Shown one piece after another: positions 4,132-31,453 of a stretch of 64,000 bases of DNA. Numbering within the stretch: the stretch's first letter is position 1; each line of letters begins with the position of its first letter. The position numbers were made by a program, and so were the translations under genes. Below the pieces are notes generated by a model. It made no database searches. It saw only the letters and a program-made list of their open reading frames with translations, and was not told where the DNA came from. Origin of the DNA: Amycolatopsis sp. GM8 (GTDB taxonomy: Bacteria > Actinomycetota > Actinomycetes > Mycobacteriales > Pseudonocardiaceae); the NCBI RefSeq assembly GCF_021653975.1, contig NZ_JAJKFK010000003.1:1-64000 (forward strand). The letters are read 5' to 3'.

Positions 4132-4234
4132 GCGATACCCGGCCGGTTGTGCGTTTCGCGGCGCGCGGTACCACGGATAGCGTCGATGTGCGCGTCACCA
4201 CAGTCGCCGTCGCGCAGGAAGGACACATGCGGTC

Positions 4235-5527: not shown

Positions 5528-5532
5528 TTGCC

Positions 5533-5564
5533 ACCGGGGGCGGGCCGCGTGGCCCGCCCCCGGT
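5533..5564 (+). terminator. GC hairpin after mno, terminator or attenuator
   Basis: A 14-bp perfect stem (5533-5546 with 5551-5564) closed by GCGT begins five bases after the mno stop codon; only a short T-run (TTT) overlaps and follows it. It lies 19 bases before the MoxR gene, so partial readthrough could give high mno and lower moxR transcript levels. Confidence 0.75.
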
Positions 5565-5583
5565 TTAGGGAAGGGAGAGCCGG

Positions 5584-6603: not shown

Positions 6604-6605
6604 CG

Positions 6606-8102
6606 ATGGAAGCGAGTCTGCACCGGTTCGTCCGGCTGCTGCGGTTGCGTGACGTCCGGATCTCGGTGCCCGAAACCGTGGATGCCCTGCGATGCGCGGC
6701 GGAGCCGGGAATTCTCGCCGACCGGAGGGTGCTCAAGGAGGCGCTCCGGCTCGCGCTGGTCAAGGACCACCGCGACGACGCGGCGTTCGACGAGATCTTC
6801 GACGCTTTCTTCGCGCTGGTACGCGTCGGCCCGGCTGAACACGGCCACGGTCACGGGCACACGCACGACGATCTGTCCGACGAAGGCGCGCTGGAAAGTT
6901 TCACGCTGTCCGAGGAACCGAGCGAAACCCCGCAACAGGGCCACGAACACGGCAAGCCGAGCGACATCCGGGACTACTTCGATCCGGCAGACCTGGCACA
7001 GCAATACAATCTGCACCAGGAGGCGAACAAGATCGACCTCGCCTCGATGACGGACGAGATCATGTTTTCCAAGGACAACACCGTGTCCGGTGACGCGGGC
7101 TACCGGGTGCAGCTGGACACCGACCGGCTGCACGGCGCGGGCGTGCCGGGCCGGTTGTCGCGAGACACCGGCACGAAAGTCGACGCGGAGCTGACCGTCG
7201 CTGAGCAGGACACGCTACTCGGCTGGCTGGACCAGGCTGACGACGAGGACGATGCCGCGACACTGCGCCACCGGTTGGCCGGGGTACTGGAAAACCTGCC
7301 GGAAGCGCTCAAGCGGCACCTGGAAGCGTTGCTGGAGCTGGAGAACAAGGTCGTCGAGTCGCGTGAGCGTCGAGTGTCCGAAGTGGACTCCACCGGGGAG
7401 AACGAACGCGCGGAACTGGAGGAGTCGTTGCGGCGGCTGGCCTCGTCCCTGCGAGGCGCGCTGACCCATCGCAGGCGGATCGCCAGCGCGGGTCGCGTCG
7501 ATCCCGGCCGGACCATGCGCCGCAACCTGCGTTTCGACGGCATCCCGTTCAGCCCGGTCACGGTGAAACGGGCCGAGGACCGGCCGCGACTGGTGGTGCT
7601 CGCCGACGTGAGCCTGTCGGTGCGGGCGACGGCGCGGTTCACCCTGCATCTGGTGCACGGGCTGCAGAACCTGTTCGCACAGGTCCGTTCCTTCGCGTTC
7701 GTGGACGGGATCGCCGAGACCACCGAACTGTTCGCCGAGTACCCGGTCGATCGCGCGCTCGGCCTGATCTTCGGTGGCGACGTGCTCGACGTCGACGCGA
7801 ACTCCAACTACGGCGCGGCGTTCGGCGAGTTCCTCGCTGAGCACTCGTCGGCGGTCACGCGCCGCACCACGGTGCTGGTGCTCGGAGACGGTCGCGGCAA
7901 CGGCAACGACCCGAACCTCACCGCGTTCGCGGAAATCTCCCGGCGGGCGCGGGAGACGATCTGGCTCACCCCGGAGCCGCGTTACTCGTGGGGCCTCGGC
8001 GGCTGCGACCTATCCGCCTACGCCGAGTATTGCGGCAAGGTTCGCATCGTCCGCGATCTGTCCGGTTTGGACAGAGCCGCCCTCGACCTGGTGGCGCGAT
8101 GA
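6606..8102 (+). CDS. VWA (CoxE-like) protein, MoxR partner with His-rich stretch
   Basis: A 498-residue protein with a C-terminal von Willebrand factor A domain of the CoxE type. The metal-ion-dependent adhesion motif DVSLS begins at residue 334 and the later Asp is in LGDGRGNGND. Residues about 77-88 carry EHGHGHGHTHDD, echoing the tail of the upstream MoxR protein. The middle part (200-290) is acidic and probably helical. MoxR/VWA pairs act in metal-centre insertion or complex assembly in the cytoplasm. Genes are two bases apart and the downstream methyltransferase overlaps by ATGA, so all three are one operon. A role in loading metal into the alcohol dehydrogenases of this locus is inferred from position. 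Confidence 0.85.
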   Translation: MEASLHRFVRLLRLRDVRISVPETVDALRCAAEPGILADRRVLKEALRLALVKDHRDDAAFDEIFDAFFALVRVGPAEHGHGHGHTHDDLSDEGALESFTLSEEPSETPQQGHEHGKPSDIRDYFDPADLAQQYNLHQEANKIDLASMTDEIMFSKDNTVSGDAGYRVQLDTDRLHGAGVPGRLSRDTGTKVDAELTVAEQDTLLGWLDQADDEDDAATLRHRLAGVLENLPEALKRHLEALLELENKVVESRERRVSEVDSTGENERAELEESLRRLASSLRGALTHRRRIASAGRVDPGRTMRRNLRFDGIPFSPVTVKRAEDRPRLVVLADVSLSVRATARFTLHLVHGLQNLFAQVRSFAFVDGIAETTELFAEYPVDRALGLIFGGDVLDVDANSNYGAAFGEFLAEHSSAVTRRTTVLVLGDGRGNGNDPNLTAFAEISRRARETIWLTPEPRYSWGLGGCDLSAYAEYCGKVRIVRDLSGLDRAALDLVAR

Positions 8103-8959
8103 CCGCCACCCTGGACCCGCTCGACGAGTACCTCGACGATCGGGTGCGCGTAGTGCGCGCCGAGGACGACGGCCGGCCCGCGGTCGTCCGCACCGCGCAT
8201 TTCCGGTTGCACCGCGCCGGACGGCGGATCGAGATCAGCCACTGCCTGCGGCCCGACCAGCTGGACAACGGCCTCACCGGGTTGCTGATGGACGAGTTGT
8301 TCAACCCCGGCTGGCTGTGCGGGCCGGACATTTTCGAGCGAGTGTTCACCGGCGTCGTGCGCAGCACCCTGCCCGATCCGCGATTGGCCTGGACCATGTT
8401 CTACCGCAACACGCTCGCGCACCTCGCTGATCCGCGTGGCGCGCCGCCGCTGATCGCGGAGATGGCGCCCGTGTACGCGCGGGTGCTGCGGCTGGTGCGG
8501 CCGGGAAGCGTGCTGGATCTGGGTTCCTGCTTCGGTTTCCTGCCGTTGCTGCTGGCCGCGCGGCCCCGGATGACGGTGACCGCGTCGGACATCGTCGGGG
8601 GCGCGATGCGCTTGCTCGGCACCGTCGCCGCGGCCCGGGGAACGGCGTTGCGGACCCTGGTCTGCGACGCCACCCGCGTGCCCCTGCCGGACTCCGTTGT
8701 GGACACCGTGACCGTGGTCCACCTGCTCGAACACCTCGATCCCGCACGGGGCCACGCGGTCCTCACGGAAGCGATGCGCCTCGCCCGGTCCAAAGTGGTC
8801 GTCGCCGTGCCGTTCGAGGACGTGCCGAGCGCCGACTACGGCCACGTGCGCCGATTCGACCTGGCAACCCTGACCCGCCTCGGCGAGGAAACCGGCTGGC
8901 GCCACCGCGTCTCCACCTTCCACGGCGGCTGGCTAATCCTCGACCGGCGGCCGGCCTGA
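8099..8959 (+). CDS. mftM: SAM-dependent methyltransferase, probable mycofactocin methyltransferase
   Basis: A 286-residue class I methyltransferase. The SAM-binding motif VLDLGSCFGF lies at about 138-147, followed by an acidic-loop region (VTASDIVGG), motif VCDATRVPLPDS and VTVVHLLEHLD. The ATG overlaps the VWA stop as ATGA. Its place next to mno and the two-component pair matches the position of the mycobacterial methyltransferase MftM, which methylates the oligoglucose chain of mycofactocin (from memory of the mycobacterial locus). The assignment therefore rests on family plus gene order; sequence search against MftM would decide. Alternatively it could modify another small molecule of the alcohol pathway. 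Confidence 0.7.
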   Translation: MTATLDPLDEYLDDRVRVVRAEDDGRPAVVRTAHFRLHRAGRRIEISHCLRPDQLDNGLTGLLMDELFNPGWLCGPDIFERVFTGVVRSTLPDPRLAWTMFYRNTLAHLADPRGAPPLIAEMAPVYARVLRLVRPGSVLDLGSCFGFLPLLLAARPRMTVTASDIVGGAMRLLGTVAAARGTALRTLVCDATRVPLPDSVVDTVTVVHLLEHLDPARGHAVLTEAMRLARSKVVVAVPFEDVPSADYGHVRRFDLATLTRLGEETGWRHRVSTFHGGWLILDRRPA

Positions 8960-9114: not shown

Positions 9115-9762
9115 TCAGATCAGGCCCATCTTGCTGGCCTCGTAGACCGCCTCGGCGCGGCTGGAGGCGCCGATCTTGCGCATGATGTTGCGGACGTGGA
9201 ACTTCACCGTCGTCTCCGAGATGTAGAGCCGCGCACCGATATCGCGGTTGCTGAGGCCGCGGGCCAGCAGTTCCAGCACATTCTGCTCGCGGGCGGTCAG
9301 CACCGGCTCCTCCGGCGCGGTGCGGATCGAGCGCACCATCGCCGACATCGACCGCGAGTCGAACGCGCTCTCGCCTCGTGCCACGGCCCGGATCGAGGAC
9401 ACCAGGCCGGTCGTGTCCACATCCTTGATCACATACCCGCGCGCGCCCCGGTGGATCGCCTCCACAACCAGCGCGTCGTCGAGGAACGTGGTCAGCACGA
9501 GCACCCCGACGTCCGGATAACGCGCGGTCAGCTCCGCGCACACGTCGAGGCCCTCGGTGTCGGAACCGGTGGACAGCTTCAGATCGAGCAGCACGATATC
9601 CGGCCGGGTCCGTTCCACCACCGCACGCGCCTCCGCCGCGGTCGCCGCCTCGCCGGTCACCGTGATGTCATGCTCACGCTCCAAAATGGACTTGAGGCCC
9701 TGGCGGACGATCGCGTGGTCGTCCACCAGCACGATCCGCAACGTGCGCGCGTCCGTGATCAC
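9115..9762 (-). CDS. mnoR: LuxR/NarL-type response regulator of alcohol metabolism
   Basis: A 215-residue response regulator. The receiver domain has the acidic pair VLVDDH, the phospho-acceptor Asp60 in VLLDLK and the conserved Lys in YVIKD; the C-terminal LuxR helix-turn-helix is LTAREQNVLELLARGLSN onward (about 152-195). The GTG at 9762 overlaps the kinase stop as GTGA, after GGAGGGG; the GTG one codon earlier is possible. Together with the kinase it corresponds to the pair that activates methanol/propanediol genes in mycobacteria (MnoSR), judged from order: mno, ATPase, VWA, methyltransferase, regulator, kinase, iron alcohol dehydrogenase. Likely binds the palindrome found at 4110-4131 and 12526-12548. 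Confidence 0.82.
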   Translation of the reverse strand: MITDARTLRIVLVDDHAIVRQGLKSILEREHDITVTGEAATAAEARAVVERTRPDIVLLDLKLSTGSDTEGLDVCAELTARYPDVGVLVLTTFLDDALVVEAIHRGARGYVIKDVDTTGLVSSIRAVARGESAFDSRSMSAMVRSIRTAPEEPVLTAREQNVLELLARGLSNRDIGARLYISETTVKFHVRNIMRKIGASSRAEAVYEASKMGLI

Positions 9763-11096
9763 CACGCCCCTCCCCGGTCCGGCAGCGGAAGCGGAATCGT
9801 CAGCAGCAACTGGATTCCGCCGATCCGGGACCGCCGGATCGACAGCGTCCCGCCCAGTTCCTCGGCGCGCGCCCGCATGTTCGCCAGCCCGCGGTGCGCG
9901 CCCGCGAGGTCCGTCGCCGAGGACAGCCGCAGCATCCGGCGCAGCGCCACCGGATCCCCGTCGCCATCGTCGCAAATGGACAGCCGGATCGACTCGGCGC
10001 GGTAGTCGAGCCTGATCCGGGCGCGCGCGGCGGTCGTGTGCAGCACCGTGTTGAACAGCGCCTCGCCGGTGATCCGCAACAGCGAATGCTCGGCCTCGCC
10101 AGGCAGCGGCACCGGCTCGCCGTGCACGGAAACGCTCACCTGCAGCGCCGTCGGCAGGTGCACTGTGGACAGTCGTTCGAGCAGCACCGGCAGCGAACCC
10201 GAGGGCTCGGCATCCGAATGGTGCAGCGCGTAGATCGCCGCACGCAGGCGTTCCACCGCGTGCCGCGTCAACTCCTTGGCCTCGACGAGCTTGCCGGCCA
10301 CCGCGCCATCCGACTCGGCCAGTTCCGCGCGGCAGATCTCGATCATCATGCCCGCCGAGAGCACATCCTGCGTGACGCTGTCGTGCAGTTCGCGCGCGAT
10401 CCGGTGCCGCTCGTCGTCCAGCGCCTGCCGCTGCATCGCCTCGAACAGCCTGCGCTGCGTCTCCTGCAGTTCGGCGTTGCGCGCGGCCAGGTCGCGGGCC
10501 TGCTGTTCGGCCGCCTCCGACAGCTGCTCGGTGCGGCCGCGCAGCCGCATCGTGGCGTGCACGAGGAACGAGTTGTGCAACGCGACCGCGGCCTGGTTCG
10601 CGAGCACCCGGAGAACCGCGAGGTCCGTGTCGGCCACGTCCATTCCCGGCGCGGGCCGCGCGGCGATCCCGCCGACCGGTTCGCAGTCCAGTGTCATCGG
10701 CACCCGCACGCCGGTCTCGGCCGGTTCGCCGGCCTCCCATGGTCTCGACCGCAACACGCGCAGGTGCGCGAGGGCGTCCGCGGGGAACAGCCGCTCGTCG
10801 TCGACGAGGGTGTCCCCCGCCAGCAACAGAAACCGCGGCCTGGCCGCACGCAGCGCGCCATCGGCGACCGCGAACAGCAGCCAGTCGGCCTGGACGTGTT
10901 CGGCCGCCGCCCGCACGACCGCCTCGACCAGCGCTCGCGGCCCCTCCCCCGTGCGCACGAGCGCCCGCGAGATCCGGTCCAGTGCCTCGACCGCGCGTTC
11001 CAGCCGGGCTGCGGTCCGCACGAATTCCGGATAGAAGGACCGCTTTCCCGAGCGCACGCCCGTCAGCGCACCCAGATCGTTGTCCGTCGCCGTCAC
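9759..11096 (-). CDS. mnoS: GAF sensor histidine kinase of alcohol metabolism
   Basis: A 445-residue cytoplasmic histidine kinase with no membrane segment. A GAF domain spans about 50-178, a coiled coil about 180-228, and the HisKA_3 dimerisation motif DERHRIARELHDS places the phosphorylated His at 238. The HATPase domain follows (GEALFNTVLHTTAARARIR; DDGDGDP; HRGLANMRARAEELGG); its N-box Asn is present. The GTG start at 11096 directly follows the TAG of the iron alcohol dehydrogenase, with no spacing, so kinase translation is coupled to it. Being soluble, it should sense an intracellular signal such as an alcohol, aldehyde or redox cofactor state. Overlaps the response regulator by four bases. 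Confidence 0.85.
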   Translation of the reverse strand: MTATDNDLGALTGVRSGKRSFYPEFVRTAARLERAVEALDRISRALVRTGEGPRALVEAVVRAAAEHVQADWLLFAVADGALRAARPRFLLLAGDTLVDDERLFPADALAHLRVLRSRPWEAGEPAETGVRVPMTLDCEPVGGIAARPAPGMDVADTDLAVLRVLANQAAVALHNSFLVHATMRLRGRTEQLSEAAEQQARDLAARNAELQETQRRLFEAMQRQALDDERHRIARELHDSVTQDVLSAGMMIEICRAELAESDGAVAGKLVEAKELTRHAVERLRAAIYALHHSDAEPSGSLPVLLERLSTVHLPTALQVSVSVHGEPVPLPGEAEHSLLRITGEALFNTVLHTTAARARIRLDYRAESIRLSICDDGDGDPVALRRMLRLSSATDLAGAHRGLANMRARAEELGGTLSIRRSRIGGIQLLLTIPLPLPDRGGAW

Positions 11097-12449
11097 CTAC
11101 AACGCCTGGCGGAACAGGGCCGCGACATCCGCCGCGCTCGCCTCCCGCGGGTTGGTCGCCAGGCACGCGTCCTGCAAGGTCGTGCGGGCCAGCGTGCCGA
11201 TGTCGGCCTCGGTGACACCGAGCGCGGAAAGGCCACGCGGCACGCCGACCGTGTCGGCCAGCTGACGCACCCGGCAGGCGAACGCCTCGGCCACCTCGGC
11301 CGCGGGCCGGCCCGTCACGTCGACGCCGGTCGCCGCGGCGAGCGGGACGAACCGCTCGGGATCGGTGGCCGCGTTGAACCGGATCGCGTGCGGCAGCAAC
11401 ACACCGTTCAGCACGCCGTGCGGTGCGTCGAGGAGTCCACCGACCTGGTGGCTCATCGCGTGCGTGATGCCCAGGATCGCGTTGGTGAAAGCCATCCCGG
11501 CCTCCAGCGCGCCCTGCGCCATCGCGATCCGCGGTTCCGCCGCCTTCGGATGGACCATCGTGCCCAGCAGGTTGCGGGTGATCAGCGTGGCCGCGTGCAG
11601 GGCGTGCTGGTCGGTCAGCGGGTTGTGCGCGCGGGAGACGAACGACTCGACCGCGTGGGTCAGCGCGTCGAGGCCGGTGGCGGCGTTCAGCTCGTCCGGC
11701 ATCGTGATGAGCAGGCGCGGATCGATGATCGAGATGTCCGGCACCAGCGTGCGGCTGATGATCGTGATCTTCGTGTGCTGGGTGGTATCCGTGATGACCG
11801 CGAACTGCGACACGTCCGCGCCGGTGCCGGACGTGGACGGCGCCATCACCAGCGGCGGGATGGGCTGCACGACGCGGTCCACCCCGGCGTAGCCGAGGAT
11901 CGTGCCGCCGTTGCCGGACAGGATCGCGACCCCCTTCGCCGCGTCGATGCAGGATCCGCCGCCCACCGCGATGATCACGTCCGCGCCGGCCGCCGCGTAC
12001 TGCTGGTAGGCGGCCTCGATCTCGTGGTCCTTGGGATTCGGGGTCACGCCGGAGAAGACGACCGGCCGCAGCCCGGCCAGCTGCAGGTGACTGTCCGCCT
12101 CGTCGACCCAGCCCGCCTCGATCAGACCGGGATCGCTGACCAGGAACGGCCTGCGGGCACCCACCCGCAGCGCGGCGTGCCCCAGCTCGGCCAGCGAACC
12201 CGGGCCGAACACCACCTCCGGTACATGGAACTTGGCCAGTCCGGCCGGCTCGGTCCCGGTCTTCGCGATACCCGGCCCGGTCAGCGTTTCACCTTGGTCG
12301 AGGACACGGCCCGGCACGGCACCCTCCCGCGGTTCGCGGTCCCCGCGGCGATGCGGCGACCGTGTCCACGGTACGTCAGGACGGTCGTCGACGAGAACCC
12401 CGCCGGGCACGGCGCCGGGCAGTTTCGGCAGGTCGGACAGTCGTGGCAT
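11097..12449 (-). CDS. Iron-containing alcohol dehydrogenase, 1,3-propanediol dehydrogenase type
   Basis: A 450-residue type III alcohol dehydrogenase. NAD-binding motif GGGSCIDAAKG and metal-ligand motifs LDALTHAVESF, GITHAMSHQVGG and DAPHGVLNG are present. The first 65 or so residues are an extra, proline- and arginine-rich segment before the usual start of the fold (PEVVFGPGS). The start ATG at 12449 follows a GAGGAG site seven bases upstream; longer readings enter the promoter palindrome. The stop TAG abuts the kinase start, making alcohol dehydrogenase, kinase and regulator one operon, so the regulators and a target are co-transcribed. Propanediol specificity is suggested by the parallel mycobacterial locus, not by sequence alone. 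Confidence 0.87.
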   Translation of the reverse strand: MPRLSDLPKLPGAVPGGVLVDDRPDVPWTRSPHRRGDREPREGAVPGRVLDQGETLTGPGIAKTGTEPAGLAKFHVPEVVFGPGSLAELGHAALRVGARRPFLVSDPGLIEAGWVDEADSHLQLAGLRPVVFSGVTPNPKDHEIEAAYQQYAAAGADVIIAVGGGSCIDAAKGVAILSGNGGTILGYAGVDRVVQPIPPLVMAPSTSGTGADVSQFAVITDTTQHTKITIISRTLVPDISIIDPRLLITMPDELNAATGLDALTHAVESFVSRAHNPLTDQHALHAATLITRNLLGTMVHPKAAEPRIAMAQGALEAGMAFTNAILGITHAMSHQVGGLLDAPHGVLNGVLLPHAIRFNAATDPERFVPLAAATGVDVTGRPAAEVAEAFACRVRQLADTVGVPRGLSALGVTEADIGTLARTTLQDACLATNPREASAADVAALFRQAL

Positions 12450-12662: not shown

Positions 12663-13718
12663 ATGTCGATACTGATTTTCATCGCTGGTGCGGTACTGCT
12701 GATCTACAGCGCGCAGAAGCTGATCATCTATCTCGTCGGCGCCGCCGCCGGCCTGCGAATCTCGATATTCCTGCTCGCGATCGTCTTCACCGGAATCGAA
12801 TTCGACGACGTCGCGCTCGGTGTCGCACTGAACATGGAGGATCTCAGCGACGTCGCCCTCGGCACCGTTTTCGGGACGGCGATCTCGATGATCGGCATAG
12901 TGCTCGCGCTCGCCGCGATCATTTCTCCGACGAAAGTGAACGTCCCGCGCCCGTACATCGCGCTGTTCGCCGCCGCGCCGCTCGTGCTGATCCCCTTCGT
13001 CGTCTTCGGGCCGCTCACCCCGCTCTACGGCGCGCTGCTCGTAATCCTGTTCGTGCTGTTCGTCGGTTACGTGGCCAAGCGAGAGCTCAAACGGAGCACC
13101 CCGGTCTTCCGCAATGCGGAGATACTCGAAAAACTGGAGGTCGGTGGAGGTTCCGGCGGAACCGGGAGCCACAGCGTCCCCGACCCGCCCACCGACCGGC
13201 CACCATTCGTCGTCACGATGCCGTTCACCAAAGGACGCCCGATTCCGGGCTGGGCCTCGATCGGACTCGCTGTCGTCGCGCTCGCCGGTCTCGTCGCCGG
13301 CGCCGCCATCATGACGTTCGGCACGAAAGGCGCGCTGGAGGATTACCACATTCAGGGAGCATTGTTCGGCGCCACCATCGTCACCCTCGTGCTCTCCCTC
13401 GAGGACATAATCCTGACCGTCGAACCCACCCGGAAAGGCGCGCCGGAAATCGGAGTCGGGAACGTCATCGGCAGCGTCGTGTTCGGCGTTACCGCGAAGC
13501 TCGGCATCATCCTGCTCGCAGGCGGCAGCATCGTCATCGGCGAAGACGTGCTGTCCTGGCACCTCCCGGTTCTCGTCGGCATGACCGGCCTCGCGGCGTA
13601 CATGCTCTACACCCGCCGGCTGCGGCGCTGGCACGGGTTCGTACTGCTCGCGCTCTACATCGCCTACTGGGTCCTCAGCTTCGCCGTCTTCGGGGGCGCA
13701 CCGGTCGAAACGGACTGA
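12663..13718 (+). CDS. Sodium/calcium exchanger-family membrane protein (divergent)
   Basis: A 351-residue integral membrane protein with about ten hydrophobic segments in two halves around a soluble loop (about 140-195). Each half has a repeat like the CaCA alpha repeat: FTGIEFDDVALGVALN... ALGTVFGTAISMIGI in the first and VTLVLSLEDIILTVEP... GVGNVIGSVVFGVTAKLGI in the second. The usual GTSxPE signatures are replaced by GIEFDD and VLSLED, so the ion specificity is uncertain. CaCA proteins exchange Ca2+ or other cations for Na+ or H+. Neighbouring PQQ alcohol dehydrogenase needs Ca2+ or a lanthanide, so a cation-handling role for it is an attractive inference. The ATG at 12663 was chosen because upstream sequence reads through the promoter region. 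Confidence 0.7.
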   Translation: MSILIFIAGAVLLIYSAQKLIIYLVGAAAGLRISIFLLAIVFTGIEFDDVALGVALNMEDLSDVALGTVFGTAISMIGIVLALAAIISPTKVNVPRPYIALFAAAPLVLIPFVVFGPLTPLYGALLVILFVLFVGYVAKRELKRSTPVFRNAEILEKLEVGGGSGGTGSHSVPDPPTDRPPFVVTMPFTKGRPIPGWASIGLAVVALAGLVAGAAIMTFGTKGALEDYHIQGALFGATIVTLVLSLEDIILTVEPTRKGAPEIGVGNVIGSVVFGVTAKLGIILLAGGSIVIGEDVLSWHLPVLVGMTGLAAYMLYTRRLRRWHGFVLLALYIAYWVLSFAVFGGAPVETD

Positions 13719-14797
13719 GCCCGGTGCGGGCGAGGGATCAGCGGACGATCGCCGGTCCGCGAGTCCGCGTTGGCGGCCTCGACCGCCTGGCTGACCAGGC
13801 TGTGGTCGGGCGACAGGTGACAAACCGGATCCGTGCGGGCGGCGTCGCCGGTCAGCTGGAACGCCTGGCAGCGGCACCCGCCGAAGTCCAGCTCTCGGCG
13901 GTCACAGCTCCGGCAGGGTTCCGGCATCCAGTCCGTGCCCCGGAACGCGGTCATCACCGGGGCCTCGGCCCAGATCCGGTCGAGCGGGTCCTCGCGCACG
14001 CTGGCCCGCGGCAACGGCAGGGACTGGGCGGCCGGACAGGGCAGGACGTCGCCATTCGGCGTCACGGTCAGTTGCCGGGCGGCCCAGCCGCCCATACAGG
14101 GCTTCGGGTACCGGCTGTAGTAGTCGGGGAGGACGTAGATGATCTCCATGCGGTCCCGCAGCCGGTTCCGGGCGGCCCGCACGACGACCTCGGCCGCGTC
14201 GAGCTGAGCCCGGCTCGGGAGCAGCGCGGCACGGTTGCGCCACGCCCAGCCGTAGTACTGGGTGTTGGCCAGCTCCACCCGGTCGGCCCCGACCTGCTCG
14301 GCCAGCGCGAGCACGTCGGCGACGCGGTCGATGTTCTGCCGGTGCAGCACCACGTTCACGGTGAGCGGCCAGCCCAGCGCCTTCACCACGCGCATGGCCT
14401 CGATCTTGCGGTGGAACGACGGGGTCCCGGCGATCCGGTCGGACAGGGCGGGCTCGTCGGCCTGGATGCTGACCTGCACGTGATCCAGCCCGGCTGCCCG
14501 CAGTTGCTCGGCTTTCGCACGGGACAGCCCGAACGCGCTGGTGACGAGGTTGGTGTAAAGGCCGAGATCGTGCGCCTGCGCCACGATCTCGGCGAGGTCG
14601 CGGCGCGCCAGCGGTTCCCCACCGGACAGGTGGCATTGCAGCACCCCGAGATCGCGGGCCTCGCGCAGCACCCGCCGCCACTCGCCGGTGTCCAGCTCGT
14701 CGGCGTAGTCCCCCAGGTTCAGCGGGTTCGAGCAGTACGGGCAGGCCAGCGGGCAGCGGTAGGTGAGCTCGGCCAGCAACCCGAAGGGGCTATCCAT
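13664..14797 (-). CDS. pqqE: PQQ biosynthesis radical SAM enzyme PqqE
   Basis: A 377-residue radical SAM/SPASM enzyme that makes the Glu-Tyr carbon-carbon link in PqqA, the first PQQ step, in complex with PqqD. The SAM cluster motif CPLACPYC is at residues 15-22; the GGEP motif and the SPASM cysteines (CMGGW, CPAAQ, CRSCDRRELDFGGCRC, DPVCH) are all there. The ATG at 14797 lies inside pqqD, overlapping its end by eight bases. The last 18 codons run tail-to-tail over the end of the exchanger gene (55-base overlap), so the C-terminal tail is likely dispensable. Last gene of the PQQ operon. Confidence 0.95.
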   Translation of the reverse strand: MDSPFGLLAELTYRCPLACPYCSNPLNLGDYADELDTGEWRRVLREARDLGVLQCHLSGGEPLARRDLAEIVAQAHDLGLYTNLVTSAFGLSRAKAEQLRAAGLDHVQVSIQADEPALSDRIAGTPSFHRKIEAMRVVKALGWPLTVNVVLHRQNIDRVADVLALAEQVGADRVELANTQYYGWAWRNRAALLPSRAQLDAAEVVVRAARNRLRDRMEIIYVLPDYYSRYPKPCMGGWAARQLTVTPNGDVLPCPAAQSLPLPRASVREDPLDRIWAEAPVMTAFRGTDWMPEPCRSCDRRELDFGGCRCQAFQLTGDAARTDPVCHLSPDHSLVSQAVEAANADSRTGDRPLIPRPHRAQSVSTGAPPKTAKLRTQ

Positions 14798-15083
14798 CGG
14801 TGATCTCCACGCAGCGCCGGGCCACGAGCCCGGTCAGGAACCGCCGCACTTCGTCATCGGGGACGTCCCGGTAGCGCCTGCGCAGCTCGGTCTCGATCTC
14901 GGCCACGGTGCGCCGCCCGTCGCACAGTTCGAGGATGGCCGCGCCGCTGCCGCGCAGCACCACCACCGTCTCGGGGTGCAGCAGGATGTGCCGCTGCCGC
15001 GCCTCGCTGAACGTCAGGCGGACATGCCGCGCCAGCCGGGGACGGTCTGATGTGGACACTTCACGCCGGGTCTTCGAGTCCAT
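14790..15083 (-). CDS. pqqD: PQQ peptide chaperone PqqD
   Basis: A 97-residue RiPP recognition protein that binds PqqA and presents it to PqqE. Family features seen: RHVRLTFSEARQRHILLHPE near the start, LNxxxxxIL-type segment GAAILELCDGRRTVAEIETEL, and the C-terminal helix DEVRRFLTGLVARRCVEI. The ATG at 15083 has GGAG eight bases upstream; a GTG at 15092 overlapping the pqqC stop lacks room for a site. Only five bases separate it from pqqC and it overlaps pqqE by eight, so expression is coupled. Confidence 0.93.
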   Translation of the reverse strand: MDSKTRREVSTSDRPRLARHVRLTFSEARQRHILLHPETVVVLRGSGAAILELCDGRRTVAEIETELRRRYRDVPDDEVRRFLTGLVARRCVEITDG

Positions 15084-15088: not shown

Positions 15089-15775
15089 TCACTCCGGGTA
15101 GGCCTGGTCGATGGCGTCCATCAGGCTCCACAGGACATCGCACTTGAACGACAACGCGTCAACGGCGCGGGCCTGGGACTCGGCGGAGAGGCAGTGCGCG
15201 GTGACCACTTCGAGTGCGTGCTCGCAGTCGCGGGGAGCCTGCTCGAGGCGGGCGCGGAAGTAGGCGAGGCCCTCGGGGTCGATCCACGGATACCACCGCT
15301 CGAAGGCGGCCAGCCGCCGGGCCATCAGGTCAGGGGCGAACAGTTCGGTGAGCGACGACGCCACCGCCTCCACCCACGGCCGGGTCCGGGCGAAGTTCAC
15401 ATAGGCATCCACAGCGAACCGGACGCCGGGGACCAGATGCCGGTGATCCCGGACCTCCTCGCGGGTCAGGCCGGTGGCCTCGCCCAGACGCAACCACGCC
15501 TCGATGCCGCCCTCGCCCGCGACGGCGCCGTCGTGGTCGGCGATCCGGCGGATCCAGCGGCGGCGGACCTCGACGTCGGGACAGTTGGAGAGGATCGCCG
15601 CGTCCTTGCGGGGAATGTTCTCCTGATAATAGAAGCGATTGGCCACCCAGCCCCGGATCTGTCCCGGACCGAGCCGGCCCGCGTTCATCCGGACGTGAAA
15701 CGGGTGCGCGTCGTGGTAGCGCCGCGAGTGGGCGCGCAACGCCTCGACGAAGTCGTCTGTGACCGTCGTTGTCAC
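15089..15775 (-). CDS. pqqC: Pyrroloquinoline-quinone synthase PqqC
   Basis: A 228-residue cofactor-free oxidase that performs the last ring closure and oxidation to give PQQ. Typical sequence: [37 protein letters not shown], the RIADHDG loop, and [16 protein letters not shown]. Length matches the family (about 230-250). The GTG start at 15775 is three bases after the pqqB stop, with its ribosome binding site (GGAGGTGTAA) inside the end of pqqB. Operon position pqqB-C-D-E is canonical. Confidence 0.95.
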
Positions 15776-15778: not shown

Positions 15779-16666
15779 TTACACCTCCACCTCGAGACCG
15801 TCCATGGCCACCTCCATGCCGCTGTCCTCGACGGCGCGCCGCTCGGGCGTGCCGCCGAGGAGGATCGGGTTGGTGTTGTTCATGTGCACGAAAATCGTCC
15901 GGCGCACGGCCAGCGACGGGAGCTGGGCCAGGCTGCCGTCCGGGCCGTCGATCGGGAGGTGGCCCATGTCCCGAGACGTCTTCCCGGCCAGGCCGAGCCG
16001 GATGAGTTCGTCGTCGTGCCAACAGGTTCCGTCGATCAACAGGCAGCCGCAGCCCTCGATCTCCGCCCGCACCGGCGGCGTCAGCTCCTGCACCGCCGGT
16101 AAGTACACCAGCGTCCCGCCAGCTTTGTCGGTCAGCCGGTAGCCGACGACACGACCGTGGTCCGGCCCCGACCCGAACCGGGCGCGTTTGGTGGTGGGCA
16201 CGTCGAACGCCCGGCAGGACAGCCCTTCTGCCAAGGACATCTCCGCGCCGGGGTCCACAGCCCGCCACTCGACCGGGCAGTAGCGCTCCAATGTGCGGAG
16301 CAACCCCGAGCCGTCGGACAGCGTTTTGTGCGCCGCGGGCGTGGCGTAGACCGTCAAGGCGCGGGCCTCGCGCAGCAACAGCAGGCCCAGCGTGTGGTCC
16401 AACTCGGCGTCGGTGAGCAGGATCGCCTCCACCGGCGTGGTCCGGTCACCGTCGCGCGGGTGCAGGCCGGGGAAGGCCTCGATCTGGGTGCGGACGTCGG
16501 GCGAAGCGTTGAGCAGGAACCACCGGTGCCGGTCGGCACTGACGGCGATCGACGACTGCGTGCGCGCCAGGCCATCGCCGGCGCGGACCGCGGTGCACAC
16601 CGGGCAGCCGCAATTCCACTGCGGCGAGCCGCCCCCCGCCGCCGAACCCAGCACACGCACCAACAT
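15779..16666 (-). CDS. pqqB: PQQ biosynthesis metallo-hydrolase-like protein PqqB
   Basis: A 295-residue metallo-beta-lactamase-fold protein of the PqqB family, implicated in hydroxylation of the released Glu-Tyr dipeptide. It opens with the characteristic VLGSAAGGGSPQWNCGCPVC and contains LLTDAELDHTLGLLLLRE and FVHMNNTNPIL, all diagnostic of PqqB. The ATG at 16666 follows GGAGGG by nine bases; longer in-frame readings cross the pqqA gene and hairpin. A 14-bp hairpin sits between pqqA and pqqB. Confidence 0.95.
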   Translation of the reverse strand: MLVRVLGSAAGGGSPQWNCGCPVCTAVRAGDGLARTQSSIAVSADRHRWFLLNASPDVRTQIEAFPGLHPRDGDRTTPVEAILLTDAELDHTLGLLLLREARALTVYATPAAHKTLSDGSGLLRTLERYCPVEWRAVDPGAEMSLAEGLSCRAFDVPTTKRARFGSGPDHGRVVGYRLTDKAGGTLVYLPAVQELTPPVRAEIEGCGCLLIDGTCWHDDELIRLGLAGKTSRDMGHLPIDGPDGSLAQLPSLAVRRTIFVHMNNTNPILLGGTPERRAVEDSGMEVAMDGLEVEV

Positions 16667-16701
16667 CGTCGCGTTCCCTCCGTCGTCGCTCTGGGCCGTC
16701 G

Positions 16702-16743: not shown

Positions 16744-16839
16744 CTAGTCCTCCAACTGAGCGACGTACATGGTCACCTCGGGTGCGACTCCGATCTCGTC
16801 GAACTCGGGCGTCTCCCACACAGCGAGCTCGGACTCCAT
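16744..16839 (-). CDS. pqqA: PQQ precursor peptide PqqA
   Basis: A 31-codon gene encoding the ribosomally made precursor of PQQ. The conserved core APEVTMYVAQ gives the Glu21 and Tyr25 pair (spacing E-x3-Y) that PqqE links; the leader MESELAVWETPEFDEIGV is acidic. The ATG at 16839 is preceded by an excellent ribosome binding site (GAGAGGAGGT, six bases away), as expected for a highly expressed peptide. It lies 43 bases after the PQQ dehydrogenase stop and before pqqB, in the same operon. The gene is short and easily missed by automatic annotation. Confidence 0.95.
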   Translation of the reverse strand: MESELAVWETPEFDEIGVAPEVTMYVAQLED

Positions 16840-16882: not shown

Positions 16883-18577
16883 CTATTCCGGCAGGGCGAA
16901 GACGATCAGGGCGCTGCCGTGCCCCGCGCCGAGCATGCCGGGCAGGAATCCCTCGGCCCAGCCGCCCCAGCCCACCGGTACGGCGATGTACTGCCGCCCG
17001 TCGACCATGTAGGTGGTCGGGCTGCTGTGGTGGCCGCTGCCGCACTGGAACTGCCACAGCAGTTCCCCGGTACGAGCGTCGAGGGCGTTGAGCTCGCCGG
17101 AGGCTTCACCGGCGAACACCAGGTCGCCACCGGTGGCGAGCGTCGACGCGCACATCGGGAGTTCGTTGCGCCAGCGCCACTTCTCCTCGCCGGCGCCGTC
17201 GAACGCGCTGATGGACCCCGCCATGTCGCCGATGTCCACGGCTACGCCCGCGCCCCAATAAGGGATGCTTTCCTTGAACTCCCGGCGCCGCCGGGTGGCC
17301 GTGGCGCCGGTGTCCTGGACCGGGACGTAGAAGAGCCCTGTCTTGGGGCTGTAGGACGCGTGGGTCCATTCCTTGGCACCGGCCGGACCGGGGTAGAAGT
17401 GGACCGGCTCGCCCTCCTTCTCCGGGTACACCTTCGGTGTCACCTGGCCGTCCCTCGTGATCGCCCCCCAGGTGATGCGGTCCACGAAGGGAGTGATCTG
17501 GACCAGCGCGCCGTTCGTGCGATCGAGAACGAAGAAGTAGCCGTTCTTGTCGAAGTGCCCGAGCAGCTTGCGCCCGTCCTTCTCGAACAGGATGCATTCG
17601 GCGATGCTGTCGTAGTCCCACAGATCGTGCGGGGTGCACTGGTAGTGCCAGCGGATCTGCCCGCTGTCCACGTCGACGGCGACGACGCTGTCGGTGTAGA
17701 GGTTGTCGCCCTCCCGGACCTCGCCGTCGAAGTCGGGTGCCGGGTTACCGGTGCCCACATACAGCAGGTTCGTCTCCGGGTCGAACGTGCTGGTGACCCA
17801 GCAGTTCGCGCCGCCCCGCGCCCAGGCGTCGCCGTTGGCGGGCCAGGTTTCCGAGCCCGGCTCACCGGGCTTCGGCACCATGTAGCAACGCCACTGGTGC
17901 TCGCCGGTCTCGACGTCGAACGCGTCGAGGTGGCCGCGCACACCGAACTCGCCGCCAGAACTGCCGACGATGACCATGTTCTTCACGACCAGCGGGGCCA
18001 CCGTGGCGCTCTCGCCGGCCCGCACGTCGCCGTAGGTCTTGGTCCAGACCGGCTTGCCGGTGGTCGCGTCGAGCGCGAGCACCCGGGCGTTCGCGGTCAC
18101 GAAGAAGACCTTCCCCTGCGCGACGGCCACCCCGCGGTTGACGTTCCCGCAGCACAGGGACACGTCGAAGGGAACCGCGTGCTTGTACCGCCAGATCTCC
18201 ACGCCGGTCTTCGCGTCGAGCGCCCACACCCAGCCGTCCCAGCCGGAGAGGAACATGATCCCGTCGACGACGATCGGGGCGGCCTCGAACGAGTAGGTCG
18301 ACGCGCCCGCGATCAGGCCGGTCGTGCCGGCCTGGAAGATCCATGCCGGGCCGAGGCGTTTGACGTTCCCGGTGTTGATCTGGTCCAGCGTGCTGTAGCG
18401 CTGCCCGTCGTAGGCGCCGTAGTAGGTGAGCCAGTTCTGCGGCTCCTGGCGGGCGTTGAGGATGCGCTCGTAGTTGACGCCGGCCGTCACCGGCGGCGCG
18501 ACTTCCCCGCCCGCGACCTTGCCGCTCAGGTTTCCCTGGTCGACGGCTTCGCCGGCGTCCACGTACTCGACGGTCAT
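16883..18577 (-). CDS. PQQ-dependent alcohol dehydrogenase, lanthanide-type, no signal peptide
   Basis: A 564-residue eight-bladed quinoprotein alcohol dehydrogenase. Tryptophan-docking repeats are visible (GWVWALDAKTGVEIW, RVLALDATTGKPVW, VVAVDVDSGQIRWHYQ, ELNALDARTGELLW). The vicinal cysteines Cys142-Cys143 (LCCGN) that pack on PQQ are present. TPHDLWDYDS gives catalytic Asp321 and a second Asp323 two residues on, the pattern that marks lanthanide-binding XoxF/ExaF-type enzymes rather than Ca2+ MxaF. Odd: the N-terminus (MTVEYVDAGEAVDQ) is polar with an in-frame TAG just upstream, so no Sec or Tat signal is encoded. No cytochrome c gene is nearby. It sits 12 bases after the cupredoxin-like gene and just before pqqA. 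Confidence 0.92.
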   Translation of the reverse strand: MTVEYVDAGEAVDQGNLSGKVAGGEVAPPVTAGVNYERILNARQEPQNWLTYYGAYDGQRYSTLDQINTGNVKRLGPAWIFQAGTTGLIAGASTYSFEAAPIVVDGIMFLSGWDGWVWALDAKTGVEIWRYKHAVPFDVSLCCGNVNRGVAVAQGKVFFVTANARVLALDATTGKPVWTKTYGDVRAGESATVAPLVVKNMVIVGSSGGEFGVRGHLDAFDVETGEHQWRCYMVPKPGEPGSETWPANGDAWARGGANCWVTSTFDPETNLLYVGTGNPAPDFDGEVREGDNLYTDSVVAVDVDSGQIRWHYQCTPHDLWDYDSIAECILFEKDGRKLLGHFDKNGYFFVLDRTNGALVQITPFVDRITWGAITRDGQVTPKVYPEKEGEPVHFYPGPAGAKEWTHASYSPKTGLFYVPVQDTGATATRRRREFKESIPYWGAGVAVDIGDMAGSISAFDGAGEEKWRWRNELPMCASTLATGGDLVFAGEASGELNALDARTGELLWQFQCGSGHHSSPTTYMVDGRQYIAVPVGWGGWAEGFLPGMLGAGHGSALIVFALPE

Positions 18578-18589
18578 TTCGTCTCCTCT

Positions 18590-19051
18590 CTACGGCCGCG
18601 GCTGCGCGGGACGGTCGAGGCGGGCTTCCGGCGGCGCGTCCCCGAGCACCACGATGGCCCCGGTCAGTCCCCGGCCCTCGTCGTTGCCCGTGGGCGAGCC
18701 GAACCAGTAGTAGCCGGGCCCGTCGAGGTTGAGCTTCGCCCGCCCCCGCGAATGGTTGACCAGCCAGATGAACTTTCGATCGCCATTGCTCGGCAGAAGT
18801 GCGCAGTGCGTGTTCCGGTCGTCATTGACGAGTTCGAGTTCGATATCCCCGCCATGCGGCATGACCAGAATGGAGGGATCGAAAACCAGCTCGTCCGGGT
18901 TGATCCGAATCGTGGCCTGCATGCGACCACCCGACCCCTCGGTGGCCTGCGCGATGTTCCCGGTTCCCAGCACGCTGCCCAGCGCTGCTTTGTTCTGTGC
19001 GTCCAACCCGAGGCTGTGGAGCAGATCGGATCGATCCTTCATCGTCGTCAT
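18590..19051 (-). CDS. Cupredoxin-like protein lacking copper ligands
   Basis: A 153-residue protein. Residues about 45-140 resemble a cupredoxin beta sandwich (ATIRINPDELVFDPSILVMPHGGDIELELVNDD... then YYWFGSPTGNDEGRGLTGAIVVLG). In true cupredoxins the last segment carries Cys, His and Met copper ligands; here the aligned positions are Gly/Ser, Asn and Leu, so a type 1 copper site is not expected. There is no signal peptide; the first 40 residues are helical-looking (RSDLLHSLGLDAQNKAALGSVLG). ATG at 19051 was chosen because GAGGAGGT precedes it. It is the first gene of the PQQ operon, 12 bases before the dehydrogenase, so it is probably a structural or electron-transfer-interface partner (inference). 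Confidence 0.7.
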   Translation of the reverse strand: MTTMKDRSDLLHSLGLDAQNKAALGSVLGTGNIAQATEGSGGRMQATIRINPDELVFDPSILVMPHGGDIELELVNDDRNTHCALLPSNGDRKFIWLVNHSRGRAKLNLDGPGYYWFGSPTGNDEGRGLTGAIVVLGDAPPEARLDRPAQPRP

Positions 19052-19204: not shown

Positions 19205-21373
19205 CTACCGTTCGGACCCGGTGGCCCGCCGCTGGAGGTCGTACCGATCGAGGTTCATGACCTTGTCCCACGCGGCCACGAAGTCCCGCACGAACATCTC
19301 CCGCGCGTCGTCGCTCGCGTAGACCTCCGCGACGGCACGCAGCTCGGAGTTCCAGCCGAAGGCGAGATCGACCCGGCTACCGGTCCATCTGACTTCCCCG
19401 GTGGCGCGGTCGCGGCCCACGAAGATCTCCGGGTTCTCGGCCGCCGGCCGCCATTCGATGCTCATGTCGAGCAGGGTGACGAAGAAGTCGTTGGTCAGCA
19501 CACCGGGCCGGGAGGTGAAGACACCCAGCGGCGAGTGCCGGTGGTTGGCGCCGAGGACGCGCAGGCCACCCACCAGGACGGTCATCTCGGGCGCGGTCAG
19601 GTTCAGCAGGTTCGCCCGGTCGACCAGCAGGTGTTCGGGCGGCAGCCGGAGCGTTTTCCCTTGGTAGTTGCGGAATCCGTCCGCGGCCGGCTCCAGCGCG
19701 GCGAATGACTCGACATCGGTCCACTCCTGCGTCGCGTCCGTGCGGCCCGGGGTGAACGGGACGTGGATGTCGTGACCGGCGTTCCTCGCGGCCTGCTCCA
19801 CGGCCGCGCACCCGGCGAGCACGATCAGGTCGGCCAGCGAGATCTTCGTCCGCCCCGGGGAGCTGTTGAAGGTCTCCCGGATCTCTTCGAGGGCGCGCAG
19901 CACCGGCCTCAGCGTGCCGGGGTCGTTGACCTCCCAGCCGCGCTGCGGTTCGAGCCGGAGGCGCGCCCCGTTCGCCCCGCCCCGCTTGTCGCTGATGCGG
20001 AACGTCGAGGCCGACGCCCATGCGGTCGTCACGAGCTGGGCGAGCGGCAGTCCGGAGGCGAGGATCCGCTGCTCGAGCGTGGCGATCTCGGCCGTCTGGA
20101 CGAGATCGTGGTCGACGGCGGGGACCGGGTCCTGCCAGAGCAGCCTCTCCCGGGGGACCAGCGGTCCGCGGTAGCGCTGGATCGGGCCCAGGTCCAGATG
20201 CGTCAGCTTGAACCAGGCGCGGGCGAAGGCGTCCGCCAGCTGGTCCGGGTGCTCCAGGAAGCGCCGCGCGATCGGCGCGTAGACCGGGTCGAGTCGCAGT
20301 GCGAGGTCCGTGGTGAGAATCGTCGGCGCGTGCGTCTTCGACGGGTCATGGGCGTCCGGCACGGTGCCGGCTCCTCCCCCACCTCGGGGGATCCACTGCC
20401 ACAGCCCGCCCGGGCTCAGCTCCAGATCCCACTCGTGGCCGAACAGGGTCTCGAAGAAACTGTTGTCCCACCTCGTCGGAGTGGGCGTCCAGGTCCCCTC
20501 CAGCCCGCTGGAGATGGCGTCCGCGCCCTTGCCGCGACCGTAGCCGCTCTTCCAGCCCAGGCCCTGCTGCTCGATGCCGGCGCCTTCGGGTTCGGGGCCC
20601 AGGTAGGTGTCCGGGTCGGCCGCGCCGTGGGTCTTGCCGAACGTGTGCCCGCCCGCGATCAGCGCGACGGTCTCCTCGTCGTTCATCGCCATCCGCCGGA
20701 ACGTCTCGCGGATGTCCCGGGCCGCGGTGAGCGGGTCCGGGACGGTGTTCGGGCCCTCAGGGTTGACGTAGATGAGGCCCATCTGGACCGCGGCCAGCGG
20801 GTTCGCCAGCTCCCGGACGCCGGTGTGCCGCTCGTCGCCGAGCCAGACGTGCTCCGGGCCCCAGTAGACGTCGTCGTCGGACTCCCACACGTCGACCCGG
20901 CCGCCACCGAAGCCGAACGTCGTGAACCCCATCGTCTCCAGTGCGCGGTTACCCGCGAACACCATCAGGTCGGCCCACGAAATCTTGCGGCCGTACTTCT
21001 TCTTCACCGGCCACAGCAGCCGCCGCGCCTTGTCCAGATTGCGGTTGTCCGGCCAGCTGTTCTGCGGCGCGAAGCGCTGCATGCCGGTAGCCGCGCCACC
21101 CCGGCCGTCCTCGATCCGGTACGTCCCCGCGCAGTGCCACACCATCCGGAGCACGAGCGGCCCGTAGTGGCCGAAATCGGCCGGCCACCACTCCTTCGAC
21201 GTGGTCAGCACCTCGTCGATGTCCCTGGCCAGCGCGTCGAGATCCACGGTGTCGAACTCGGCCGCGTAGTCGAAGTCCGCTCCCATCGGGTCGGCCGCGG
21301 GGGAATGCTTGCGCAGCACCGACAAGCCGAGCCGGTTCGGCCACCAGTCGCGGTTGCGCGGACTCTCAGACAT
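19205..21373 (-). CDS. katG: Catalase-peroxidase KatG
   Basis: A 722-residue bifunctional heme catalase-peroxidase that removes hydrogen peroxide. The distal triad Arg76-Trp79-His80 ([11 protein letters not shown]), proximal His243 ([10 protein letters not shown]) and the Trp79-Tyr202-Met228 residues that form the KatG adduct are all present; the degenerate second domain follows. ATG at 21373 has GGAGGG six bases upstream. A GAF-LytTR regulator gene lies 34 bases upstream in the same direction, suggesting co-transcription. The PQQ operon begins 153 bases further on; peroxide from quinoprotein or flavin oxidation nearby could explain the pairing (inference). Confidence 0.96.
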
Positions 21374-21407: not shown

Positions 21408-22799
21408 TCAGATGTCCAGCGCGCGGCGCACGGCCGGCGCGTTCCGCCGGGACACCGGCACCGTTTCGTTCGCGTGGCCGTCCATGATCAGCAGCAGCTC
21501 TCCCTTGAGGCCACGCTCGATCTCCCGGATGCGGCTGAGGTTGACCACATACCGGCGGTGCACTCGCAGGAAGCCGGCATCGGCCAGCTCACTGTCGAGC
21601 TTGTCCAGGCTGGGGGCGGCGGCTCGCAGCCGGCCCTGAGCCGTGGACAGCCACACGTCGTTCCCCTCCGACTCGGCGAAGGAAACCTCGGGTAACCGCA
21701 GCAGCACCATCCGGTTGTCGCGGATGGCGACCAGCCGGCGCGGCTCCCGGGTGGGCGCCGGATCCGCCGCCCGGGGCAGCTGCGTCCCGTCGGACGCGCC
21801 GAAGGCGACCAGGCTGCCGATCAGGTGCCCGGACGAGAAGACCGGCCGGATGCTGATCGGCGTCGGCTCGTCGGCGAGATGGGTGAAGATCTGGGTCGAG
21901 CCGACCCAGTCCGGGTTGTGGGCCGCCTGCTTACCGGCGTACCGGGCGACCCCGATCAGTTCCGGCAGCCCCGGGTTCCAGCGCAGCGTGGAGTCGATCG
22001 CCGGGGTGGAGGGCGGGACGCCCATCAGCACGCTCGCCGTGTCGTCGGCGATCACCACCTTGCCCGCGGTGTCCATCGCGGCCAGCGGCGTGCCGGAGCG
22101 CGCCCTGGCCTGCGTGTAGGCCGCGACCAGCTCGGCGCCGCTGTCGCGGGCGCGGCGCTTCAGCGTGCGCTGGGTCTGGGCGACCGCGTTCGTCAGCCAC
22201 CCGCCCGCGGACGCGGGCAGCTGCTTGCGCCAGCACGACAGGTTCAGGACCGCGATCGGCTCCCCCGTCACCACATCGCGCACCGCGATGCCCGCGCAGA
22301 CCCAGTTGTGGAACGCCTGGCACCAGTGCTCCGCGCCGCTGATCAGGACCGGGCCGTGCGCTTCGAGCGCCGTGCCCATCGCGTTCGTCCCGGCCGCGCA
22401 CTCGGACCAGCAGAACCAGGGCGCGAGATTGGCGTCGACGGCTCTGGCGAGCGTCGCCTGGTCACCCCACTCGGCCAGGATCCGGCCGGTGGCGTCGGCG
22501 ACGGTGACGACGCCACCGAGGTTGCCCACCTCATGGGCCACGAACGCGGCACGGAAACCCAGCTCGGCGAACACGACATCGTGATCGGGCACATGGTCGG
22601 GCTCCGCGACGGCCACCGGGGCCTCGGTCAGGTGCGGGTCGACCTGGTATCGCTCGCGGCAGCGGTGCCACGAGATCGCGACGAGGGGCCGGACGCCCGG
22701 CACCTGATCCTCGCCCTGCACGAACCGTTCCCACGCCGCGAACACCGTGCCGCTTCCGGGGCTCGCCGCCATGGGCTCGAACCGATGTGCGTTCTTCAT
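21408..22799 (-). CDS. GAF-LytTR transcriptional regulator
   Basis: A 463-residue regulator. The N-terminal 200 residues resemble the sensor part of AcoR-type activators ([64 protein letters not shown], a GAF domain). A second PAS/GAF-like segment follows (about 230-330). The C-terminal 100 residues are a LytTR DNA-binding domain ([32 protein letters not shown]). AcoR sensor plus LytTR is an unusual replacement of the sigma-54 module. ATG at 22799 has no strong free ribosome binding site; a 7-bp inverted repeat abuts the start codon. It precedes katG by 34 bases and may control katG or the PQQ operon. Confidence 0.78.
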
Positions 22800-22831
22800 C
22801 GTTGGGGAACCGCCTTTGGTCCATCCCAACG
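22800..22831 (-). promoter_or_regulatory. Inverted repeat abutting the GAF-LytTR start codon
   Basis: CGTTGGG (22800-22806) and CCCAACG (22825-22831) are perfect inverted arms with an 18-base spacer that contains the only purine-rich stretch (AAAGGCGG on the transcribed strand) before the ATG at 22799. It could fold in the mRNA and cover the ribosome binding site, or be a protein-binding dyad; its GTTGG halves resemble the repeats at 794-811 and 2100-2116. Confidence 0.4.
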
Positions 22832-22972
22832 CACGAGGACGAGCGCGTGGTCCGCGCGGGGTCCGGGCCTGGCCTATGGCGGACTGGGCACTGCTTCGCG
22901 CGTCTGCCTTGATTCGTCTATAGCTCACACCTTACGTATCCTCGCGGGGCCGCGCACGTGGCTTGCCGACTC

Positions 22973-31424: not shown

Positions 31425-31453
31425 TTTCTCTTGCCTCTCGCGAATGGCCTCGG

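Follow-up and report, generated by a model that had tools for sequence, protein, structure and literature searches.

A putative cytosolic quinoprotein dehydrogenase and its cupredoxin-like partner encoded beside pqqABCDE in Amycolatopsis sp. GM8

The window analysed here, a stretch of 64,000 nucleotides from Amycolatopsis sp. GM8 (assembly GCF_021653975.1, contig NZ_JAJKFK010000003.1, positions 1 to 64,000), encodes on its minus strand a pyrroloquinoline quinone (PQQ)-dependent alcohol dehydrogenase (DH; 16883-18577, 564 residues) and, 12 nt upstream, a cupredoxin-like protein (Cup; 18590-19051, 153 residues). Both lack a recognisable export leader, and their genes stand directly before pqqABCDE. 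We consider these genes and those that accompany them in other genomes best explained, with modest confidence, as a quinoprotein dehydrogenase of two proteins that works in the cytosol and is served by dedicated calcium or lanthanide handling and peroxide defence. The coordinates of both genes agree with the initial annotation of this DNA, which was silent on the named families to which the two proteins belong, on pqqABCDE, on a retained His of Cup, and on the links to a catalase-peroxidase and a cation transporter described below.

A leaderless PedH-like dehydrogenase and its partner

DH belongs to TIGR03075, the PQQ-dependent methanol/ethanol dehydrogenases (625.7 bits, cut-off 480), and also matches PF01011. 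Its top match in the PDB, by sequence and by fold, is PedH of Pseudomonas putida (6zcv): phmmer ranks PedH first (385.6 bits), followed by quinohaemoprotein alcohol dehydrogenases, ExaA, XoxF and MxaF among others, and the predicted model (mean predicted local distance difference test score 77, predicted template modelling score 0.85) resembles 6zcv most closely (template modelling score 0.83, 39% identity). Conservation and leaders were scored on complete proteins with a near-complete match (111 Cup and 76 DH, from 112 loci, with L001 and L002 representing the window), identical sequences being counted once. Cys142, Cys143, Glu210, Asn278, Asp321, Asp323 and Arg367 are invariant in all 76 distinct DH rows, window included, and Glu210, Asn278, Asp321 and Arg367 are presumably the counterparts of the active-site residues of methanol dehydrogenase. 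The vicinal pair Cys142-Cys143 (codons at 18149-18154, minus strand), likewise present in PedH, is thus kept throughout, as had been proposed for the window. A 2009 paper by Mennenga reportedly links the vicinal disulfide of such enzymes to the passage of electrons to cytochrome c-550. The conservation of the pair is puzzling in a reducing cytosol, where, to speculate, the pair may cycle or be kept oxidised by the reaction itself. Asp323, two residues past the catalytic Asp321 (codons of both within 17609-17617, minus strand), aligns with the lanthanide-type Asp of PedH in the motif HD-x-WD(F/Y)D, so that the earlier label of a lanthanide-type enzyme has its residue in 76/76 rows; according to a passage of PMC5487730, this position is occupied by Asp in PedH, which depends on lanthanide, and by Ser in PedE. 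With pqqABCDE adjacent, DH is predicted from its sequence to bind PQQ and oxidise alcohols, and a lanthanide has slightly better than an even chance of being its working metal.

That neither protein has a signal peptide, and that upstream stops exclude a hidden one, had been claimed for the window and holds, the former by a hydropathy test. Upward from the DH start come the in-frame codons GAA GAC GGA AGA and then TAG, a stop five codons up that leaves room for at most four extra residues; above the Cup start, eight in-frame codons separate it from a TGA nine codons up, and one of them, a GTG, would add six residues. Among the rows listed, the DH N-terminus is MTVEYVDAGEAIDQG or nearly identical in most relatives, and that of Cup is likewise conserved. 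As leader test we used the best 12-residue mean hydropathy within the first 40 residues, with a threshold of 2.0, which was reached by none of 75 distinct DH relatives (maximum 1.47), by none of 90 distinct Cup relatives (maximum 1.64) and by 7 of 10 exported controls; the three controls missed scored 1.71, 1.43 and 0.52, and in two of these the annotated start looks wrong. An adjacent Arg pair within the first 30 residues occurs in 0/75 DH and 2/90 Cup relatives, and a lipobox in none of either set. Since the leader is absent in the relatives too, its lack is a trait of the family and not the mark of a truncated gene. Six further Cys of DH (residues 231, 259, 314, 328, 476 and 512) are conserved in 79-95% of the 76 rows; so many Cys would be atypical of an exported protein and fit a cytosolic one.

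Export leader and nearby cytochrome c-550 gene, both traits of PedH/ExaA-type enzymes, are missing here, the former as judged by hydropathy. In contrast, three proteobacterial PedH-type relatives, annotated records among the best-ranked matches, have a leader or leader-like start, and all three carry pedF, for cytochrome c-550, and a gene for a substrate-binding protein beside the dehydrogenase. The motif CxxCH occurs in 0/49 genes predicted in the window by a codon-GC rule, not by a gene finder, a rule that misses, for example, pqqA and the transporter gene. Near the gene set in 81 loci, 1/943 genes so predicted (at least 90 residues) contains it, and its product starts like a pyridine-nucleotide flavoprotein. 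Among the genes so predicted, the earlier statement that no cytochrome c is encoded is borne out. A leader together with a neighbouring cytochrome in homologues had been named at the outset as what would speak against a cytosolic system; this check did not overturn that reading within the present family, whereas the proteobacterial relatives have the cytochrome gene and a leader or leader-like start.

Cup is a full-scoring member of the already named MSMEG_3727 family (TIGR04339, PF23509) and adjoins a PQQ dehydrogenase. The family is named without an assigned function, and the role of DH subunit that we give to Cup is our own suggestion. A fold search with its predicted model returned the cupredoxin fold, a type used in electron-transfer proteins; this likeness comes from the fold search only, as no significant match emerged when the sequence was searched against the PDB (best E 0.22 and 1.4). 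The blue-copper ligand set of two His, a Cys and a Met is not present. Residues 111-131 contain no Cys, His or Met in 83/91 distinct rows; seven others have Cys at 114, and L060 has one at 118, where the copper Cys would probably be. His82, by contrast with that loop, is kept in 91/91 rows and the following Cys83 in 88/91 (codons at 18803-18808, minus strand), and by strand topology His82 would sit in the model where the first copper His sits. The proposed loss of the copper ligands thus applies to the C-terminal loop but not to the first His. Also invariant are Asp77, Asp78, Asn80, Asn123, Asp124 and Glu125; together with His82 they belong to the pair of loops on either side of what is the copper pole in cupredoxins.

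Co-occurrence of the pair with PQQ synthesis, a cation transporter and KatG

Searching 84,980 species genomes yielded 93 Cup relatives; the 80 retained all come from records with titles of actinobacterial taxa (Streptomyces, Pseudonocardia, Amycolatopsis, Saccharopolyspora, Kineosporia, Geodermatophilus, Prauserella, Mycobacterium, Micromonospora and others). DH stands beside Cup in 77/80 of these named loci, and in the other three the contig ends just past Cup; where at least 5.8 kb follow the Cup start, DH is present in 72/72 loci and pqqE in 62/72. The distance from Cup stop to DH start is 10-30 nt in 72/75 loci and 92, 93 and 167 nt in the rest. The pqq genes are reversed in L070 and L090 and lie farther off in L111; in five Saccharopolyspora loci (L077, L079, L080, L081 and L094), Cup, DH, KatG and regulator genes stand together with no pqq genes in reach. 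Among 390 genomes of the window's family, Cup is above cut-off in 135 (136 at E 0.001) and DH in 135, with 134 in common. The exceptions are G658, where the Cup copies are found at base 64 of their contigs and DH is cut, and G583, with DH but no Cup, a leader-like start and a CxxCH reading frame that overlaps the DH end; in G612 both proteins are weak matches only. The same pair is thus found in other actinomycetes, where the initial annotation had suggested looking for it. A second DH copy was not found in the source genome. In a sample of 394 genomes of the class, Cup occurs in two, including the genome of the window itself, which points to a patchy distribution of the set.

In the window, transcription on the minus strand runs from a GAF-LytTR regulator through KatG, Cup and DH to pqqA (16744-16839, a precursor peptide of 31 residues; TIGR02107, 30.7 bits, cut-off 20), pqqB (15779-16669; TIGR02108, 375 bits), pqqC (15089-15775; TIGR02111, 323 bits), pqqD (14790-15083; TIGR03859, 77.7 bits) and pqqE (13664-14797; TIGR02109, 520 bits). 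Convergent with pqqE, and overlapping its 3' end, is a plus-strand gene for a Na/Ca-exchanger family cation transporter of 351 residues (12663-13718; PF01699, 91.5 bits), a candidate for calcium or lanthanide handling. The slot beside pqqE was examined in 62 loci (61 genome loci and the plasmid record L114) where pqqE is complete and followed by 700 bases or more, identities being assigned by Pfam on a sample and by tblastn for the remainder. It is filled in 49/62, by an MntP-like gene (PF02659) in 36 and by an exchanger gene in 13. Across the 390 family genomes, the exchanger type occurs in 80 and the MntP type in 55, all within the 136 Cup genomes, and at the chosen thresholds one or both types are found in 126/136 genomes with Cup vs 0/254 others. 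These thresholds (1e-60 and 1e-25) were fixed before the genome searches and after the slot had been seen beside pqqE; the genomes are related, so that Fisher values for this contrast do not count as true probabilities. With up to 150 Cup places listed, 56/92 exchanger and 40/63 MntP-like places lie within 10 kb of a listed Cup, and a further 32 and 19, respectively, are on contigs without one. Neither type reaches a known NCBIfam equivalog, the exchanger scoring 86.8 bits vs 179.65 for the calcium/sodium antiporter and the MntP-like protein at best 58.2 vs 214 for MntP. That two families occupy one slot, in either orientation, and were never seen apart from the enzyme speaks for a common function, namely to control the ion that DH requires. 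The transporter link looks functional, and it is fairly likely that the transporter serves the metal of the enzyme.

KatG, a catalase-peroxidase encoded upstream of Cup in the same direction (19205-21373, minus strand; TIGR00198, 1120 bits), is found in 62/80 named loci, and L070 has a partial 45% match; with L070 included, KatG lies upstream in 58 and downstream in five. In loci with long flanks it is present in 54/66. In the five loci where KatG lies on the far side of DH, four times beyond pqqE, the link has survived rearrangement, and it too looks functional. By hydropathy, a leader was seen in 0/58 KatG proteins, and 7/58 have an adjacent Arg pair in the first 30 residues. A regulator related to the GAF-LytTR protein of the window (21408-22928, minus strand; PF04397, 63 bits) occurs in 67/80 loci, in line in 56 and divergent and more distant in 11, and likely controls the set. 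The source genome also holds a second katG-like gene (contig C18 of G000, 104709-106844), 74% identical and with one in-frame TGA.

Proposed mechanism and rival explanations

From gene order, the leaders missing by hydropathy, the active-site residues, the predicted partner fold and co-occurrence we infer location, complex, metal, direction of transport and acceptor, with differing confidence. PQQ is synthesised in the cytosol, and PqqABCDE would make it in the compartment where DH works. Leaderless DH would bind PQQ together with a calcium or lanthanide ion and remove two electrons from an alcohol. Cup, unable to form the usual blue-copper site, would be a fixed subunit bound at DH, where it might aid the loading of metal or PQQ or cover the face at which cytochrome c docks in the relatives. 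The transporter beside pqqE would set the cytosolic level of the metal; reduced PQQ would pass its electrons to oxygen or to a soluble oxygen-reactive carrier, because no cytochrome c is encoded; and KatG would clear the resulting H2O2. A cytosolic location of the DH-Cup system is probable and a fixed complex of the two somewhat less so. Acceptor and metal are the weakest steps, and the route to oxygen and H2O2 is tentative, at somewhat less than an even chance. A bolder version, which we regard as doubtful, is a cytosolic Gram-positive lanthanide quinoprotein in which the transporter brings the lanthanide or calcium in, Cup, its copper site exchanged for a hard-metal site at the invariant residues of the two loops named above, hands the ion to DH, oxygen reoxidises PQQ and KatG is the safeguard.

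Several observations weigh against the cytosolic mechanism as a whole. A vicinal disulfide normally forms outside the cytosol, so the conservation of the Cys pair could argue for export. Confidence is low for several loops of the DH model, and just one of the five models of the partner is good. No pqqE is in reach in 10/72 loci with room for it, Saccharopolyspora loci among them. Neither transporter stands beside pqqE in 13/62 loci (L100 and L110 carry an MntP-like gene elsewhere in the locus), and 10/136 Cup genomes lack both types at the chosen thresholds; moreover, MntP- and exchanger-type transporters usually export ions, so the direction of transport is open. PqqC itself makes H2O2, so KatG need not report on DH. 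Of the 80 loci, 17 lack KatG, including 12 of the 66 with long flanks (L091, L098, L102-L107 and L110-L113, from Geodermatophilus, Micromonospora, Gandjariella, a second copy in Amycolatopsis taiwanensis, metagenome-assembled genomes (MAGs) and others), and in L070 the match is only partial. No substitute peroxide scavenger was seen in nine flank proteins of five KatG-less loci and one protein of a KatG-bearing locus.

The near relation of DH to exported enzymes (39% identity to PedH) and its retained Cys pair would also suit export of folded DH and Cup by an unrecognised route, such as co-export with a substrate of the twin-arginine translocation system, type VII secretion or another non-classical path, with both acting outside the membrane. 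We think this clearly unlikely given the scarcity of Arg pairs and the lack of lipoboxes in both sets, a KatG without leader, the cytosolic synthesis of PQQ and the recurrence of a membrane cation transporter; nor is there a secretion family among the 25 commonest of the 146 families found in 106 of 148 listed flank proteins, from 19 loci. Alternatively, a cytosolic DH might give up its electrons, on the cytosolic side of the membrane, to a quinone or a respiratory subunit encoded elsewhere, with Cup as docking adapter and KatG and the transporter merely co-regulated. No acceptor gene is seen in the operon, and the fold of Cup is one used in electron transfer, but Cup lacks the copper ligand set and nothing was found that ties the pair to a respiratory subunit; we rate this rather unlikely, yet it is the rival to which we give most weight.

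Mycofactocin is another conceivable electron acceptor, since genes for alcohol oxidation (an N,N-dimethyl-4-nitrosoaniline (NDMA)-dependent methanol dehydrogenase, an ExaC-type aldehyde dehydrogenase and MftM) lie 5 to 11 kb away in the window. In 40 genomes chosen across genera, the mycofactocin maturase is present in 18/20 with Cup vs 5/20 without, and the source genome has it. However, the maturase is absent from two Cup genomes, including the single-contig genome G605, and this rules out mycofactocin as a general acceptor, and shared alcohol metabolism may account for the association; mycofactocin is associated with the PQQ set and not required, and as the acceptor it is very unlikely. That DH has given up PQQ and serves as a propeller with a structural or regulatory role is barely credible: the 'empty quinoprotein' subfamily TIGR04528 scores 430 bits, and some loci have no pqqE nearby, but that score is below the cut-off of 650 whereas TIGR03075 passes, all PQQ and metal residues checked are invariant, and pqq genes follow in most loci. 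The cytosolic quinoprotein with a dedicated partner proposed in the initial annotation stands, with partial support, as the best reading, on the conserved leaderless N-termini, the near-inseparability of Cup and DH in the 390 genomes and the proteobacterial contrast.

Neighbouring genes, known systems and significance

Farther along the window, 2176-8959 and 9759-11096 hold the ExaC-type aldehyde dehydrogenase (2176-3693), the NDMA-dependent methanol dehydrogenase (4235-5527), a MadB-like protein, MftM (7988-8959) and a MadS kinase, so that two peptide-derived redox cofactor systems stand side by side. The iron-containing alcohol dehydrogenase at 11097-12440 is closest to the regulator ErcA (458 bits, below the cut-off of 550) and lies beside that kinase, an arrangement that recalls ethanol regulation in Pseudomonas. 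At 30564-34105, genes for an F420-dependent luciferase-like oxidoreductase, an aldehyde dehydrogenase and a second iron-type alcohol dehydrogenase follow in a row.

A quinoprotein dehydrogenase with a biosynthetic role in another actinomycete, that of lankacidin biosynthesis in Streptomyces rochei, was reportedly described by Yamauchi in 2018 and is said to involve two genes, orf23 and orf24; we liken it to DH by description only. XoxF shares the lanthanide-type Asp and the PQQ propeller with DH but scores lower than PedH against it (309.8 vs 385.6 bits). A XoxG-like cytochrome was not found at the DH loci; XoxJ was not searched for. Passages of PMC10875860 treat XoxF as periplasmic, deem its absence from the Gram-positive MAGs of that study unsurprising, and describe NRAMP transporters that accompany XoxF3, a parallel to the transporter beside pqqE.

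The counterparts of Cup and DH in Mycobacterium smegmatis are MSMEG_3727 and MSMEG_3726, and the locus in the window is a full-scoring member of that family. In a passage of PMC3023750, MSMEG_3726 is the lone PQQ alcohol dehydrogenase of M. smegmatis, inside the PQQ synthesis cassette; PMC6529628 lists MSMEG_3721 to MSMEG_3727 and, in the passages concerned, reports that mycofactocin is required for growth on ethanol under the conditions used, a warning that in M. smegmatis the PQQ set may not be expressed or may act on other substrates. Leaders, the function of the partner, KatG and the transporter do not come up in the passages of these two sources. The presence of PQQ enzymes in actinobacteria is in itself no novelty: according to passages of PMC5606694, an actinomycete made PQQ with methanol (Hazeu 1983, cited there), PQQ methanol dehydrogenase genes of Pseudonocardia were found in a desert metagenome (also cited there), and xoxF5-like amplicons came from an actinobacterial isolate. 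The portions of PMC8879981 consulted held nothing on PQQ in Nocardia sp. 239. For the missing leader, the role of the partner, KatG and the transporter, we found no description in the open-access literature searched.

PQQ alcohol dehydrogenases, and the lanthanide enzymes especially, are described as extracytoplasmic. If the present family is a cytosolic member, a lanthanide or calcium would be delivered to the cytosol for the enzyme, PQQ would serve in the compartment of its synthesis, and something other than a periplasmic cytochrome c would accept the electrons. The set may also bear on the old report of actinomycete PQQ with methanol (Hazeu 1983, as cited in the passage of PMC5606694), and the co-occurring transporter is a protein by which actinomycetes, Streptomyces and Amycolatopsis among them, might handle lanthanides.

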